This document shows, piece after piece, positions 54,850-63,934 of a stretch of 64,000 nt of DNA; position 1 is the stretch's first letter; every line of letters begins with the position of its first letter. The stretch is from NCBI RefSeq assembly GCF_012933465.1, contig NZ_JABBND010000001.1, positions 806,001 to 870,000 of the forward strand, given 5' to 3'. This DNA comes from Actinomycetospora sp. TBRC 11914 (GTDB taxonomy: Bacteria > Actinomycetota > Actinomycetes > Mycobacteriales > Pseudonocardiaceae). Position numbers and translations under genes: made by a program. The notes below the pieces were generated by a model that was given only the letters and a program-made list of their open reading frames with translations, was not told where the DNA came from and made no database searches.

Positions 54850-54938
54850 CGCCCGTGGTCGCACCCGCGGACCCGGGTCCATGCTCCCACGCGCCGGGCG
54901 GGACCGCCGCCCGGAGGACGGCTGATCCGGGAGGGCGC

Positions 54939-55811
54939 ATGCAGGTCCCCGCCACCTTCGGCTACGAGTTGGCCCCCGACCTCGCGGGCGCGCTCGCGCT
55001 GCTGGCGCGCCACGGTCCCGACGCCCGCCCGATCGCCGGCGGTCACAGCCTCCTGCCGATGATGAAGCTGCGGCTGGCCGAGCCGACGGTGCTCGTGGAC
55101 ATCAACGGGCTGACCGAGCTCGGCGGCATCACGGTGGACGGCGACGCGATCCGGTTCGGCGCGATGGTCCGCCACGCCGAGGTGCTCGACTCCGCGGTGG
55201 TCGCCGAGCACCTCCCGATCCTGCGCGACGCCGAGCGCGTGATCGCCGACCCGCTCGTGCGCAACCGCGGCACCGTCGGGGGCTCGCTGTGCCAGGCGGA
55301 CCCTTCCGAGGACCTCTCGGCGGCGTTCTCCGCCCTGGGCGCGACCGTCGTCATCACCTCGCGCGACGGCGAGCGGACGGTGCCCGTCCGCGAGTTCCAC
55401 CGCGGGCCCTACGAGACGGCCGTGGCGCACGACGAGCTCGTCACCGCCGTCCGCGTCCCGATCCGTCCGGCCACCGGCAGCGCCTACGAGAAGGTCGAGC
55501 GCCGGACCGGCGACTGGGCGGTCGCCGCCGCGGGTGCGGTGGTGAGCCTCGACGGGCACACCGTCGTCCGGGCGGGCATCGGGCTCGCGGCCGTCGGCGC
55601 CGAGCACTTCGTCGCCGCCGAGGCCGAGGAGGCCCTGCGCGGCGCGCCGGCCACCGCGGAGTCCTTCGCCGAGGCGGGCCGGATCGCCGCCGAGCACTGC
55701 CGTCCCACCGCCGACCAGCGCGGTCCCGTCGACTACAAGCGCCACCTCGTGGGCGTCCTCGTCGCCCGCACGTGCCACCGCGCCGCCGCCCGCGCGCGGG
55801 GAGAGGTCTGA
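54939..55811 (+). CDS. coxM: Form I CO dehydrogenase medium (FAD) subunit
   Basis: 290 aa from ATG 54939 (GGGAGGG just upstream). FAD motifs are PIAGGHSLLPMMKLRL (about residues 31-46) and NRGTVGGSLCQADPSED (about 106-122). The C-terminal CoxM domain is GSAYEKVERRTGDWAVAAAG. It conveys electrons to the quinone pool or another acceptor. It is the first gene of coxM-S-L-XdhC, the form I order, opposite to the form II cluster 15 kb away. Confidence 0.94.
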   Translation: MQVPATFGYELAPDLAGALALLARHGPDARPIAGGHSLLPMMKLRLAEPTVLVDINGLTELGGITVDGDAIRFGAMVRHAEVLDSAVVAEHLPILRDAERVIADPLVRNRGTVGGSLCQADPSEDLSAAFSALGATVVITSRDGERTVPVREFHRGPYETAVAHDELVTAVRVPIRPATGSAYEKVERRTGDWAVAAAGAVVSLDGHTVVRAGIGLAAVGAEHFVAAEAEEALRGAPATAESFAEAGRIAAEHCRPTADQRGPVDYKRHLVGVLVARTCHRAAARARGEV

Positions 55812-55814
55812 CCC

Positions 55815-56311
55815 GTGGAGATCACCGTCACCGTCAACGGGCGCGAGGTCACGCGCGACGTCGAGCCCCGCCTGCTGCTCACCCACTTCCTGCGCGACCA
55901 CCTGCGCCTCACCGGCACCCACTGGGGCTGCGACACCACCACGTGCGGCGCCTGCACGGTGCGCCTCGACGGGGTGCCGGTGAAGTCCTGCACCGTGCTC
56001 GCGGTCATGGCCGACGGCGCCCGCGTCGACACCGTCGAGGGCCTCGCCGCCGGGATGGCCGAGACCGACCTCGACCCGGTGCAGCAGGGGTTCGTCGCCT
56101 GTCACGGCCTGCAGTGCGGTTTCTGCACCCCCGGCATGCTCATGACGACGCGTGCCCTGCTCGACCGCGATCCCGATCCCTCGCCGGCGACGATCCGCGA
56201 GGCGATCTCCGGGCAGATCTGCCGGTGCACCGGCTACGAGAACATCGTCCGCGCCGTGCGCTGGGCCGCCGAGGCCGAGCAGCAGGCCGCCACGACGACG
56301 GAGGTAGCGCG

Positions 56312-56315
<4 letters not shown>
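55815..56315 (+). CDS. coxS: Form I CO dehydrogenase small (2x[2Fe-2S]) subunit
   Basis: 166 aa from GTG 55815, 3 nt after the coxM stop. Cluster motifs CDTTTCGACTVRLDGVPVKSC (the first two Cys pairs corresponding to residues about 38-58; third residue group read as CGAC) and CGFCTPGM with CRCTGY provide two [2Fe-2S] centres between the Mo site and FAD. The stop overlaps the coxL start by 4 nt (ATGA). Confidence 0.93.
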
Positions 56316-58755
<2,440 letters not shown>

Positions 58756-58759
<4 letters not shown>

Positions 58760-59472
58760 CGAGCCTGCTCGGCCGGGCCGAGGCGCTGCGGGAGCAGGGC
58801 ACCCCGTTCGTGCTGGCCACCGTCGTGCGGGTGGAGCACCCCACGAGCGCGCGCCCCGGGGACCGGGCCCTCGTGCTCGCCGACGGCACCGTCGACGGCT
58901 TCGTCGGCGGGCACTGCGCGGAGGACGGCGTGCGCCAGGAGAGCCTCCGGGTGCTCGCCTCCGGCACCACGGCGCTGCTGCGGATCGCCCCGGAGGGCGG
59001 GCCGGTCGGCTGCCACGGCGAGGTGGGGCTCGCGAACCACTGCGAGTCGGGCGGCACCCTGGAGATCCTGCTCGAGGCGGTGGTGCCGAGCACCGTCGTC
59101 GGCGTGCACGGCGACGGCCCCATCGCCGCGGCGCTGCGGCGGCTGGCGACGGCGCTCGACCACACCGTGGTCGAGGGGATGGGCTCGGGGCCGGCCCCCG
59201 ACGCCGTCGTCGTCGCGAGCCACGGGTACGACGAGGCGCCGGTGCTCGAGGCGGCGCTGCGCGCGGGCGTCGGGTACGTCGCGCTCGTCGCGAGCCGGCG
59301 CCGTGGTGCGGCGGTCCTCGCGGGGCTGGACGTCGAGGACGCCGACCGGGACCGGGTGCACACCCCGGCCGGGCTGGACCTGGGCGCCACGACGCCCCCC
59401 GAGGTCGCCCTGTCGGTGCTGGCCGAGATGGTGGCCGTGCGGGCGGGGCGGACGGTGCGGACGGAGCGGTGA
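58756..59472 (+). CDS. XdhC/CoxI-family maturation factor
   Basis: 238 aa, overlapping the coxL stop by 4 nt. The N-terminal XdhC_CoxI domain reads FVLATVVRVEHPTSARPGD, then DGFVGGHCAEDGVRQESL, where the GGxC loop holds the conserved Cys. A Rossmann-like C-terminal half follows (VVGVHGDGPIAAALRRLA, then VVVASHGYDEAPVLEAAL, VGYVALVASRRRGAAVL). XdhC proteins bind Moco and insert the terminal sulfido ligand before loading of xanthine-oxidase-family enzymes. Coupling to coxL makes this subunit its likely client. Confidence 0.88.
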
Positions 59473-59508: not shown

Positions 59509-59712
59509 TCAGCTCGCGGCGCGACGCTCCTCGACGACGGGCTCGGCCTTCGCCGGGGCCGACTCGTGGGACAGCTCGCGCATCTCGGTGGAGAACACCC
59601 GCGCGGACTGGCCGACGGAGCGGGCCAGCTCGGGGAGCTTCTTCGCCCCGAAGAGCAGCACCAGCACGCCCACGATGATCAGCCAGTGGACGGGGCTCAG
59701 CGCGCCGGTCAC
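59509..59712 (-). CDS. tatA: TatA/E-type twin-arginine translocase subunit
   Basis: 67 aa from GTG 59712 (GTGA overlap with the gene upstream). One N-terminal membrane helix (HWLIIVGVLVLLF) leads through the conserved FGAKKLPELARSVGQSARVF hinge and amphipathic helix to a charged tail. It forms the Tat export pore. It is the last gene of an operon whose first gene encodes a Tat-signal-bearing Mo hydroxylase, so it is presumably a dedicated copy. No tatB or tatC is nearby. Confidence 0.93.
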   Translation of the reverse strand: MTGALSPVHWLIIVGVLVLLFGAKKLPELARSVGQSARVFSTEMRELSHESAPAKAEPVVEERRAAS

Positions 59713-60080
59713 TCGAAGGGCCCGTTCACCAGCGCGCCGCCGACCGGTCCCTCGACGAAGCGGGGGTCGGCCTGCGGGTACTGGGTCTCGGTCCCGTTGG
59801 CGTCCTCCGGACGGGCCTGCCCGGTCGCGTTGTCGTTCGCGTCCATGATCGAGGAGGCGAGGTTGCCGGCGGTCGCGAGCACCGCGGAGGGGCCCTGGGC
59901 GGGGCTCTGGGTGCTGGGGTAGCCGGTGGTCGCGTCGGAGCGGGCCGCGTCGGTGGTGGCGAGGTGGTCGACGTGGTCGCTGGTCGCGGCCTGGGCCGTG
60001 CCGGCGGCGACGAGCGGCAGGACGGCGCCGGCGATGCCGACGGCCGCGGCCGCGGCGCGGGTGTGCCTACGGGTGGTCAT
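59709..60080 (-). CDS. Small secreted protein of the Tat-hydroxylase operon
   Basis: 123 aa from ATG 60080 (GAGAGGAAC 5 nt upstream). A Sec- or Tat-like signal peptide (TTRRHTRAAAAAVGIAGAVLP, cleavage after TAQA near residue 31) releases a mature chain of about 92 residues. That chain is rich in Ala, Asp, Asn, Thr and Gln, acidic, and without Cys. The start MTTRRH holds two Arg but not the full SRRxFL motif. I do not recognise the family. It lies between the iron-sulfur subunit gene (39-nt gap) and tatA (4-nt overlap). A helper or third subunit of the exported oxidoreductase is a guess. Confidence 0.6.
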   Translation of the reverse strand: MTTRRHTRAAAAAVGIAGAVLPLVAAGTAQAATSDHVDHLATTDAARSDATTGYPSTQSPAQGPSAVLATAGNLASSIMDANDNATGQARPEDANGTETQYPQADPRFVEGPVGGALVNGPFE

Positions 60081-60119
60081 GAGGGGTTCCTCTCGGGTGG
60101 AACGGCGGGTCGGGCGGGG

Positions 60120-60596
60120 TCACATGTCCTGCGCGCCGGCCTTGATGGCCTCGCGGATGCGGTTGTAGGTGCCGCACCGGCAGATGTTGCGCAGTTCCTC
60201 GATGGCGTCGTCGTCGACCTCGCGGCCCTCGGCCCGGCACTGCTTCACCTTGGCGACGGCGGCCATGATCTGGCCCGGCTGGCAGTAGCCGCACTGGGCC
60301 ACGTCGTTGTCGATCCAGGCCTGCTGCATCGGGTGCAGGTCGGCCTTGACCGTGTCGGCGAGGCCCTCGATCGTCGTGACCTCGTCGGTGGGCCGGATGT
60401 CCTTGACCTGCACCGAGCAGGGGTTGAACGCCTTGCCGTTGATGTGGCTGGTGCAGGCCTTGCAGACGTTGATGCCGCAGCCGTACTTCGGGCCGGTGAC
60501 CTTGAGCAGGTCGCGGATCACCCAGAGCAGGCGCACGTCGTCCTCGACGTCGACGCTGACCTGCTCGCCGTTGAGCTGGAAGGTGTGCGTGGGCAC
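60120..60596 (-). CDS. Exported-hydroxylase small [2Fe-2S] subunit (IorA-like)
   Basis: 158 aa from GTG 60596; its AGGAGG ribosome site overlaps the stop codon of the large-subunit gene. The first cluster is GCGINVCKACTSHINGKAFNPC (ligands near residues 40-60) and the second is CGYCQPGQI with CRCGTY near the C-terminus, as in the isoquinoline 1-oxidoreductase alpha subunit. It has no signal peptide, so it must be exported by hitch-hiking on the Tat signal of the large subunit. There is no FAD subunit gene, as is typical of Ior/AldA-type enzymes that donate to cytochromes. Confidence 0.9.
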   Translation of the reverse strand: MPTHTFQLNGEQVSVDVEDDVRLLWVIRDLLKVTGPKYGCGINVCKACTSHINGKAFNPCSVQVKDIRPTDEVTTIEGLADTVKADLHPMQQAWIDNDVAQCGYCQPGQIMAAVAKVKQCRAEGREVDDDAIEELRNICRCGTYNRIREAIKAGAQDM

Positions 60597-60605
60597 GAGG
60601 TCCTC

Positions 60606-62972
60606 CTAGAAGGTCGTCTGCAGACCGTCGGTCGGCGACGGCGGGATCGGGGGCACCGTCGGGTACGGCTCGAACGGCAGCGGGTCCTTGTGGTCGAGCG
60701 GGAAGTAGGTGGGGACCTTCCCGGTGGCCCGCGCGTAGGCGCAGGCGATGGCGCCGCAGGTGGCGGCGATCCCGAACTCGCCGGCGCCGCCCGGCTCCGG
60801 AGCGGTCGAGTCCATGATCACGATGTTCATCTCCGGCGGGGTGTTCCACTGCCGGGTGTAGAAGTAGTTGTCCCAGCTGGCCTCGACGAAGTGCCCGTCG
60901 TCGAGGTGCAGGCTCGAGGTGAGCGTCATCGCGAGGGCGTCGTTGATCCCGCCCATCATCTGGGCCTCGAGGCCGCGGGGGTTGATGACGAGCCCGACGT
61001 CGACCACGTAGGTCACCTTGGTGACCCGCGGACCGGTCCGGGCCTGGCGGATCTTCCGGTTGACCGTCTCCGGGCGGCAGTCGAGCTCGACGACGCAGGC
61101 CGCGGCGCCCTTGTACTCCACGTGCATGCCGATGCCCTGCGCGGTGCCGTCGGCCATCGACTTGCCCCAGCCCGCCTCCTGGGCCACCCGGTCCAGCACG
61201 GCCTTCCACCGGGCCTGCTTGGCGAACTCGGACCGGAACTCGTAGGGGTCCTTGCCGAGCTTCGCCGCGATCTGGTCGACCATCAGCTCCCGGGCGGTCG
61301 CGACGTCCGGGGAGTAGATGTTGCGCATCGAGCTGGTGTTGAAGCCCATGTCGACCTCGTTGAGGAACCGGGTCGAGGCGCCGAAGTTGTACGGGGTCAC
61401 CTGGGTCGTCTCGAAGATGGACTCCGAGACGGTCAGGTTGCCCAGGGGCGCCTTGTTGGCCGCCGCCGAGATCGCCTCCGACAGGCCCGGGTTGACCTCG
61501 GTGGCCACGCTGGTGTGGCGGATCTCGAAGCTGGTGACGGCGTCCGCGGTGACGTTGGCGCGGATCCGGCAGGTCGCCATGGGGTGGGTGCGGCCCTGAC
61601 GGGAGTCGTCGGCGCGGGTCCACATGAGCTTGACCGGCTTGCCCATCGCCTGCGAGACCAGCGCCGCCTCCTCGGCGGCGTCGAAGAACAGCTTGCGCCC
61701 GAAGGACCCGCCGCCCTCCTGGACGTGGAAGGTCACCGCGTTCTGGGGGATGCCCAGCTTCTTGGCGATCTCGGCCTGCGCGGCGATCGGGCTCTTCGAC
61801 GGGCCCCAGATCGTGGCCCGGTTGCCGCGGACGTCGGCGATGGCGCAGTTCGTCTCGAGCGAGGAGTTGCTGCGGAAGTAGAAGACGAACTCGCCCTCGA
61901 GGCTGCCGGGGAGCTTCGGCGCGGCCAGCGGGAGCTCGGCGGCGCGCAGCTCCTTGAGCACCGCGTCGTCGTCCTTGCCGTGCACCGTGCCGTTCGCCCA
62001 GGTGACCTGGAGGGCGTCGACGGCCGCGATGCACTGGCCGAAGGTGTTGCCGCGGACCGCGACCCCACCGCCGACCTTCACCACGTCGGTGATGCCGGGC
62101 ATCGTCCGCACCTGGTCGAGGTTCGCGACGGCCCGCGGGTAGCCGTTGAGGTCGGGCGCCCGGCACAGGACCGTCGGCAGGGCGCCGGGGATCTGCAGGT
62201 CCGTCGTGAACTTCTTCTTGCCGGTGACCATCGCGAGCGCGTCGGACTTGGTCCGCGGCTTGCCGATGATCGTGAACTTCTCCTGGTCCTTCAGGGCGAC
62301 CTCGACGGCCTGCGTGACGGGGGCGGCGGCCTTGGTGGTGAGCTCGCCGAACGGCAGCGACGCCCCGTTGGGTCCGGTGATCAGGCCCTGCCGGCTGGTG
62401 AGCACGTCCTTGTCCTGGCGCATCTCGGCCGCGGCGGCGTCGAGGAGCCGCCCCTGGGCCAGCGCGGCCGCCACCCGGATCGGGGTGAACGTGGTGAACG
62501 TCGTCGACGAGCCACCGGTGAGCTGGTTGAACACCAGCTCCGGGCGGGCGTCCGCGAGGGTGACGAGGACCTGGTCGGGATCGAGGCCCATCTCCTCGGC
62601 GATGATCATCTGGGTCGACGTGATGATGCCCTGGCCGTTGTCGGAGCGCGGCAGCGCGAACGAGACCGTGTTGTCCCGGTTCACCTTGATCCGGATGAGG
62701 TTCGCGGTGGGGCGGGCCGAGTCCCGGAGCACGTCGAGGAGGTCGTAGACCTCCGGGGTCTGCGGCGCCGACGGGACGGCCAACGCCGACGCCGACGGCG
62801 TCGCGTCGAAGATCGCCTCCCGGCCCAGCTCGGCCGCCGCCACGAGGGTCGTCCCGGCCACGACGTAGCCCAGGAACCGGCGCCGGCTGAGATCGGTGTG
62901 GAGGACGCCGTGCTTCGCGGGGCGCTCGGCCCGTGGTCTCTCCCGCGTGGTGGTGGCCCGGTGGCTGGGCAT
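60606..62972 (-). CDS. Tat-exported molybdopterin hydroxylase large subunit (IorB-like)
   Basis: 788 aa from ATG 62972 (GGGGAGG 6 nt upstream). The N-terminus has a Tat signal, SRRRFLGYVVAGTTLVAAAE (about residues 29-48). Molybdopterin motifs follow: PRSDNGQGI, EGGGSFGRKLF, HPMATCRIRA, and GGAGEFGIAATCGAI with the catalytic Glu732. There is no VAYxCSFR or AYRGAGR loop, so it is not a CO dehydrogenase. It belongs to the isoquinoline/aldehyde oxidoreductase beta type. Substrate is open: aldehydes, N-heterocycles and quinolines are known for relatives. It heads the operon with its FeS subunit, a small secreted protein and TatA. An upstream low-GC gap likely holds the promoter. Confidence 0.92.
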   Translation of the reverse strand: MPSHRATTTRERPRAERPAKHGVLHTDLSRRRFLGYVVAGTTLVAAAELGREAIFDATPSASALAVPSAPQTPEVYDLLDVLRDSARPTANLIRIKVNRDNTVSFALPRSDNGQGIITSTQMIIAEEMGLDPDQVLVTLADARPELVFNQLTGGSSTTFTTFTPIRVAAALAQGRLLDAAAAEMRQDKDVLTSRQGLITGPNGASLPFGELTTKAAAPVTQAVEVALKDQEKFTIIGKPRTKSDALAMVTGKKKFTTDLQIPGALPTVLCRAPDLNGYPRAVANLDQVRTMPGITDVVKVGGGVAVRGNTFGQCIAAVDALQVTWANGTVHGKDDDAVLKELRAAELPLAAPKLPGSLEGEFVFYFRSNSSLETNCAIADVRGNRATIWGPSKSPIAAQAEIAKKLGIPQNAVTFHVQEGGGSFGRKLFFDAAEEAALVSQAMGKPVKLMWTRADDSRQGRTHPMATCRIRANVTADAVTSFEIRHTSVATEVNPGLSEAISAAANKAPLGNLTVSESIFETTQVTPYNFGASTRFLNEVDMGFNTSSMRNIYSPDVATARELMVDQIAAKLGKDPYEFRSEFAKQARWKAVLDRVAQEAGWGKSMADGTAQGIGMHVEYKGAAACVVELDCRPETVNRKIRQARTGPRVTKVTYVVDVGLVINPRGLEAQMMGGINDALAMTLTSSLHLDDGHFVEASWDNYFYTRQWNTPPEMNIVIMDSTAPEPGGAGEFGIAATCGAIACAYARATGKVPTYFPLDHKDPLPFEPYPTVPPIPPSPTDGLQTTF

Positions 62973-63283: not shown

Positions 63284-63934
63284 TCACCCGCGGCCGAGGG
63301 CTCGCCGGACGTCGTCGTCGGAGAGCTGGCCGAAGTCCTCGTAGTGGTCGCCGACGGCGCGGAACCGCGGCGGGACCGTCACCGCCACCACCTCGCCGCC
63401 CCACTCGTGCGCGAGCCGCTCCGCCGTCGTCGCCGCGATCACCGGGGCGCCCAGCACCAACCGGGACGGGCCGGCGGCCTCGAGCGCCCGCAGCGCGGCG
63501 AGGGCCGTGACGCCGGTGGCGACGCCGTCGTCGACGAGCACGACGTCCCGGCCCGGCGCGCGCTCGCGCCAGGTCGCGCCGTAGGCCGCCTCCCGACGGC
63601 GGGCCTCGGCGCGCTCCTCGGCGACGGCACCGGCCAGCGCGTCGGGGGTCAGGCCCTGCCGCTCGAGCGCGACGGTGAACCACACCGGCTCGCCGTCGGA
63701 GGCGACCGCGCCGAGCCCCGCCTCGGGCCGGCCGGGCCGGGTCACCTTGCGGGCCACGCCCACGTCGACCTCGGCCGCCTCGCCCAGGACGGCGGCCGCG
63801 GCGACCGCGACGGGGACCCCGCCGCGCGCGAGGCCGACCAGCAGCGGCCGGTCGAGGTCCACCCCGGCGAGCACGACGCCGAGCGCCCGCCCCGCGTCGA
63901 TCCGGTTGCGGAAGACCACCCGCCCCGCGTCCAT
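63284..63934 (-). CDS. Phosphoribosyltransferase-family protein
   Basis: 216 aa from ATG 63934. The PRPP-binding loop is VVLVDDGVATGVTALAALRAL (about residues 128-148). The N-terminal VVFRNRIDAGRALG, then GLARGGVPVAVAAAAVLG, matches the family of predicted phosphoribosyltransferases that often stand next to, or are fused with, dienelactone-hydrolase-like proteins. Purine or pyrimidine specificity is not evident. It is separated from the Tat operon by a 311-nt gap on the same strand. Confidence 0.87.
   Translation of the reverse strand: MDAGRVVFRNRIDAGRALGVVLAGVDLDRPLLVGLARGGVPVAVAAAAVLGEAAEVDVGVARKVTRPGRPEAGLGAVASDGEPVWFTVALERQGLTPDALAGAVAEERAEARRREAAYGATWRERAPGRDVVLVDDGVATGVTALAALRALEAAGPSRLVLGAPVIAATTAERLAHEWGGEVVAVTVPPRFRAVGDHYEDFGQLSDDDVRRALGRG

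Follow-up and report, generated by a model that had tools for sequence, protein, structure and literature searches.

Dehydrogenases of the type represented by 8gy3 and by the isoquinoline 1-oxidoreductase IorAB, which is from Brevundimonas, have a cytochrome subunit. To our knowledge, the extracytoplasmic molybdenum (Mo) hydroxylases of Gram-positive bacteria are without this subunit used by their Gram-negative relatives. The gene described here bears on how such enzymes reach their complete form and on the destination of their electrons. We analysed a 64,000-nt stretch of the genome of Actinomycetospora sp. TBRC 11914 (contig NZ_JABBND010000001.1, positions 806,001 to 870,000; hereafter the window), in which four close-set genes on the minus strand, running from 62972 to 59509, encode an IorB-like large subunit, an IorA-like small subunit, a secreted protein of no known family (SP), and a TatA-type protein. 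An earlier interpretation made without database searches (hereafter the sequence-only reading) had recognised all four genes correctly and had proposed a self-contained unit for an exported Mo hydroxylase with its own TatA, in which the small protein would be a third subunit, a chaperone, or an electron-transfer adaptor. The comparison presented here shows that the conserved unit comprises three genes, IorB-IorA-SP.

The window enzyme is of the OxiBA/IorBA kind, with MoCoBD domains in the large subunit, Fer2 and Fer2_2 domains in the small subunit, and a twin-arginine signal on the large but not the small subunit (signal peptides, here and below, were judged by eye from the sequence). IorAB of Brevundimonas and aldehyde dehydrogenases such as 8gy3 have the same two-subunit domain make-up, and among solved structures chain C of 8gy3 comes closest in sequence (E 1.3e-25). 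Window IorB carries a GAGE motif at residue 729, the glutamate of which we take to be the active-site glutamate. The same two kinds of subunit form the lcp-linked OxiAB of Streptomyces sp. K30 and Actinoplanes sp. OR16, a comparison that rests on lcp-linked relatives of the window enzyme, the K30 and OR16 proteins themselves being outside it. PMC7413915 gives the gene order oxiB-oxiA for OR16 and reports that OxiAB of K30 metabolises the aldehyde products of Lcp, and the order lcp-oxiBA is described for rubber degraders (PMC9108482, PMC11169899, PMC8538451, PMC7413915, PMC3426405). Compared with the lcp-linked relatives, an SP gene behind the small subunit and the lack of a neighbouring lcp are features of the window branch. 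PaoABC of Escherichia coli is likewise a Tat (twin-arginine translocation)-exported Mo hydroxylase with hitchhiking subunits, but its signal sits on the [2Fe-2S] subunit PaoA, whereas that of the window enzyme is on the Mo subunit and the window enzyme has no flavin adenine dinucleotide (FAD) subunit; the PaoA and PaoC models score the window subunits far under their cut-offs (108.6 versus 322 and 69 versus 1180 bits). Export of PaoABC by Tat with subunits hitchhiking is described in PMC4273604. No third gene of the SP kind was found named in a search of openly licensed papers, supplements being outside this scope.

Linkage of SP to IorBA

SP is strictly linked to IorBA. A search with window SP against 390 genomes of the family (11 candidates scored per genome) gave matches in 53 genomes at 68 places. 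Two weak matches (G053, G357) were rejected as chance, having no SP by profile and neither IorB nor IorA adjoining, and a profile search added two genomes with SP (L147, L148). The resulting 66 kept places and two profile finds make up 68 SP copies, including the single copy of the window genome, in 74 loci, all in two genera of one family: that of the window genome (g1) and one other, possibly Pseudonocardia (g30). Several g30 genomes are closely related (IorB is identical between L101 and L152, for example), and the 68 copies should therefore not be counted as independent of one another. SP lies directly behind IorA in 64 of the 68 copies and the remaining four begin at most 105 bases from a contig end; every copy with a readable upstream side (64/64) is thus behind IorA. 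IorB is also present ahead of IorA-SP in 61 of these 64, the contig ending within IorA in the other three. The sequence-only reading had taken the small protein for a companion of an exported Mo hydroxylase and had suggested its co-occurrence with IorAB and TatA as a check; for IorAB this is borne out, as none of the readable copies stands away from IorA.

Counted in reverse, the 74 loci contain 70 IorA genes that are complete at the 3' end, and for 64 of these SP is the next gene. The six IorA genes without SP are three tandem first copies (L049, L057, L065), L150, for which 224 bases are left on the contig behind IorA, L158, which falls outside the SP side of the IorB tree described below, and L149. 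The three tandem loci have the arrangement IorBA-IorBA, about 390–400 bases apart, with one SP behind the second copy. As a control, genes neighbouring 61 loci were clustered, and after IorB, IorA, and SP the commonest neighbour family occurred in 11/61. The rough gene finder used for this clustering undercounts (SP itself was detected in only 32 loci), and despite this undercounting the contrast with the 64/64 linkage of SP stays large.

To look beyond the two genera, 394 genomes of the class were searched with the SP profile (at most 12 candidates scored per genome). This class-wide search gave 12 genomes at E ≤ 0.01, including the window's own; the other 11 were weak (E ≥ 6.4e-4), extended only up to profile position 70 of 95, left the tail uncovered, and were therefore taken for signal-peptide matches. 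No SP was found on plasmids at E 0.01. Within g1, eight genomes have a more distant IorB only and no SP match (G022, G024, G025, G028, G029, G033, G036, G037).

The distribution of SP follows the phylogeny of the enzyme. IorB relatives occur in 271 of the 390 family genomes and 55 of the 394 class genomes at the thresholds used, and the nearer ones were read, so that the unrooted FastTree tree of 126 IorB sequences is a sample; SP was assigned per locus, the three tandem first copies being counted as SP. One branch with a local support of 100 divides the tree: SP is present in 62 of the 68 rows to one side of it and in none of the 58 to the other, of which 56 could be read for 400 bases or more behind IorA (exceptions L134 and L157). 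Six rows on the SP side are without SP; five lie on contigs that end too early (L150, L154, L155, L156, L159), and the sixth is L149. A single gain of SP at the base of the SP side would be the simplest reading of this unrooted tree, although SP may instead have been lost elsewhere. Nine positions in IorB are clade-specific. On the other side, 23 of the 58 rows have an Lcp-type gene just upstream in the order lcp-oxiBA (PF09995 confirmed for the two checked); these lcp-linked relatives are 56–60% identical to window IorB and have a twin-arginine motif on the large subunit, and SP follows the small subunit in none of the 23 rows. SP thereby marks off this enzyme branch, itself uncharacterised, from the OxiBA of rubber degraders, with which it might be grouped by similarity.

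Properties and possible role of SP

We regard the SP frame as a real gene because it has 68 copies, of which 64 occupy the same place in the gene order, and because nonsynonymous (dN) were lower than synonymous (dS) substitution rates in 10/10 pairs tested (ratio 0.13 to 0.42). Window SP matched no Pfam family over the cut-off or at E 0.01 and no NCBIfam family; among 30 members searched against Pfam one touched DUF7213 at E 0.0086, and nothing was convincing. No solved structure matching SP was found (best E 0.26). An export signal with an AxA (alanine-x-alanine) site is present in 61 of 63 copies (in the other two, the start chosen in our analysis cut the signal off), and the absence of RR from the first 20 residues in 39/63 points to Sec as the export route. 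By the simple AxA rule, mature SP has a median of about 67 residues (about 92 in the window) and is acidic, with a median isoelectric point (pI) of about 4.05 that equals the program's floor. Invariant in all 30 aligned rows are the AxA alanines, Q62, D80, P91, G96, G111, P112, G115, and P121. Conservation is highest in the tail, with a mean column identity of 0.73, compared with 0.55 in the middle and 0.58 in the signal region, and in 56 of the 63 copies the last GP begins four residues from the C-terminus.

These properties bear on the roles that the sequence-only reading had offered. No copy has a cysteine after residue 25 (0/63) and only 17/63 have any histidine after residue 30; judged by Cys/His ligands, SP does not qualify as an electron-transfer subunit of the cytochrome c, ferredoxin, or cupredoxin kind. 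Being without cysteine, SP has no haem c motif and differs from the cytochrome subunit of the IorAB- and 8gy3-type dehydrogenases; an electron-carrier role is for the same reason unlikely, and the proposed adaptor is abandoned here. Cytoplasmic Tat or Mo chaperones (XdhC, redox enzyme maturation proteins) have no export signal, and no such family matches SP. As the export signal with its AxA site is kept, a cytoplasmic chaperone acting before Tat export is unlikely. The third-subunit idea, as far as the sequences suggest, appears to be the best of the earlier proposals.

We favour, at about even confidence, the reading that SP is a dedicated extracytoplasmic structural subunit or stabiliser, presumably bound to an exported OxiBA-type Mo hydroxylase. 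IorB and IorA would form this hydroxylase, folded and cofactor-loaded in the cytoplasm, and would leave by Tat as a pair; the signal-less [2Fe-2S] subunit is presumably exported together with IorB by riding along, comparable to PaoABC. SP would be exported separately on its own signal, probably unfolded via Sec, be cleaved behind the AxA site to yield an acidic peptide, and bind the enzyme outside via its conserved C-terminal tail, an association retained by a single branch of these enzymes. NapA with NapB is a precedent for such assembly by two routes. Given its kinship with OxiBA, the enzyme is probably aldehyde-oxidising and would convert an aldehyde to the acid outside the membrane. Rather doubtful, in our estimation, is the further-reaching claim that SP represents a new family whose members are obligate third subunits, small acidic Sec-exported peptides that clamp a Tat-exported, cofactor-loaded Mo hydroxylase with their tail and serve to complete or gate it only extracellularly. 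In either form, a strictly linked, cysteine-free exported protein offers a concrete gene for testing.

Several observations speak against SP as a bound subunit or against parts of the proposed mechanism. IorB relatives without SP exist, as the 58 rows on the other side of the tree show, so that the chemistry itself does not depend on SP. At L149 (G293:C1:964710), on the SP side, IorBA lacks SP although the contig is intact, a true absence; with an SP-bearing copy elsewhere in its genome (L056), this locus is a natural test case. The linkage itself is compatible with a shared regulon or substrate instead of binding. RR does occur in the first 20 residues of 24/63 SPs, and the 19/63 that fit a loose twin-arginine pattern (RR-x-two hydrophobics) could use Tat; L048, L074, and L088 are examples of such starts. 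A model by AlphaFold of IorA read through into SP, based on a two-row alignment, had a mean predicted local distance difference test (pLDDT) score of 34.5 and was discarded. As to the substrate, PMC3426405 describes the involvement of OxiAB in aldehyde oxidation as no more than possible. No lcp was found beside SP-side loci at E 1e-20, 56 of the 61 SP loci with IorB seen having at least 1300 bases upstream of IorB, and these loci hence lack the linkage by which the rubber-pathway OxiBA is recognised. The substrate of the SP branch therefore need not be rubber-derived and may differ from that of OxiBA. Elsewhere in the window genome there are five PF09995 genes, which may be Lcp or other members of the family.

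Alternative explanations and the role of TatA

Strict linkage does not need binding, and SP could be an extracellular helper that, unbound, retains the enzyme at the cell wall, captures its substrate, or presents it. The acidic mature protein would suit such a role. We nevertheless consider it rather unlikely, since no sortase motif was noticed in reading the SP alignment, a lipobox is impossible without cysteine in the mature part, and the highly conserved tail would resemble a docking element more than general stickiness. That conservation peaks at the very C-terminus, with its nearly fixed distance from the last GP, could also be read as the mark of an active part, SP then being a secreted peptide or substrate that is modified by IorBA or reports its activity. 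We know of no precedent for a Mo hydroxylase acting on a peptide, and none of the recurrent neighbours was conspicuous as a gene for maturation or transport, which makes this explanation highly improbable. Block inheritance of the operon without any functional tie would account for the narrow range of SP in two genera of one family. Such passive hitchhiking is very unlikely, however, because SP persists while the flanks differ, also behind tandem duplications and in multi-copy genomes, and is under purifying selection.

The last alternative concerns TatA, which the sequence-only reading had included in the conserved unit. The window protein is a TatA, with a membrane helix, an FG motif, an amphipathic helix, and scores above the NCBIfam family cut-offs (PRK00575, 75.6 versus 72 bits; TIGR01411, 61.2 versus 53.9 bits). 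Its arrangement beside a Tat substrate recalls the TatAd-TatCd system of Bacillus, which is linked to PhoD, but the window tatA is without tatC and tatA is found behind SP in only four of the 68 loci (window, L046, L062, L063), or 4/65 when only loci read for 400 bases or more behind SP are counted. This rules out a place for TatA in the conserved unit. An enzyme-adaptor unit with a dedicated TatA, serving as a special export gate for this enzyme, would be in keeping with the overlap of SP stop and tatA start in the window and L046 and with the tatA right behind SP in L062 and L063, which belong to another genus; PMC4148689 reports that two TatA paralogues help to place Tat substrates in Campylobacter jejuni. 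We judge it improbable, as besides their rarity the TatAs of these operons show nothing unusual in sequence (among 32 unlinked TatA-type genes that were read, the best matches share 78% identity over 45 residues), two to seven TatA/B genes are present in 16/16 related genomes searched (among them G022, without an SP match), and the window genome has four TatA/B-type genes and one TatC that was found, encoded elsewhere. The additional TatA in the window probably does no more than raise ordinary export capacity. The single tatC found is located at C8:76231, and no TatA match of the genome-wide search adjoins it. Nor can the operon be called self-contained: besides the distant TatC, none of the recurrent neighbours of the 61 loci analysed with the rough gene finder was recognisable as a gene for cofactor assembly, and a search of the other 73 loci gave no match to the XdhC gene of the window.

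Gene content of the window

The features of the operon are listed in the table. The intergenic gaps are 9 bp between IorB and IorA and 39 bp between IorA and SP, and the SP stop and tatA start share the four bases GTGA.

Table. Features of the IorB-IorA-SP-tatA operon, in window coordinates
Feature	Position	Strand	Remarks
IorB/OxiB-like Mo-binding large subunit	60606..62972	-	788 aa; Tat motif SRRRFLGY; MoCoBD_1 and MoCoBD_2 (Pfam)
IorA/OxiA-like [2Fe-2S] small subunit	60120..60596	-	158 aa; Fer2 and Fer2_2; no signal peptide by eye
SP, secreted protein of no known family, conserved third gene	59709..60080	-	123 aa
SP conserved C-terminal tail, about residues 91–123	59712..59810	-	alignment conservation
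tatA-type gene	59509..59712	-	67 aa; ordinary TatA; not conserved in the unit

Upstream of the operon lies a gene with a phosphoribosyltransferase domain (63284-63934). Convergent with the operon, positions 54855-59472 on the plus strand encode a carbon monoxide (CO)-dehydrogenase-like set of FAD, [2Fe-2S], and Mo subunits together with the XdhC gene. A short MPxHR-like motif precedes the Tat arginines of IorB (window 62972-62950) and recurs in many SP-side rows of the IorB tree; it is also present in two other-side rows from the same genus, L157 and L158.

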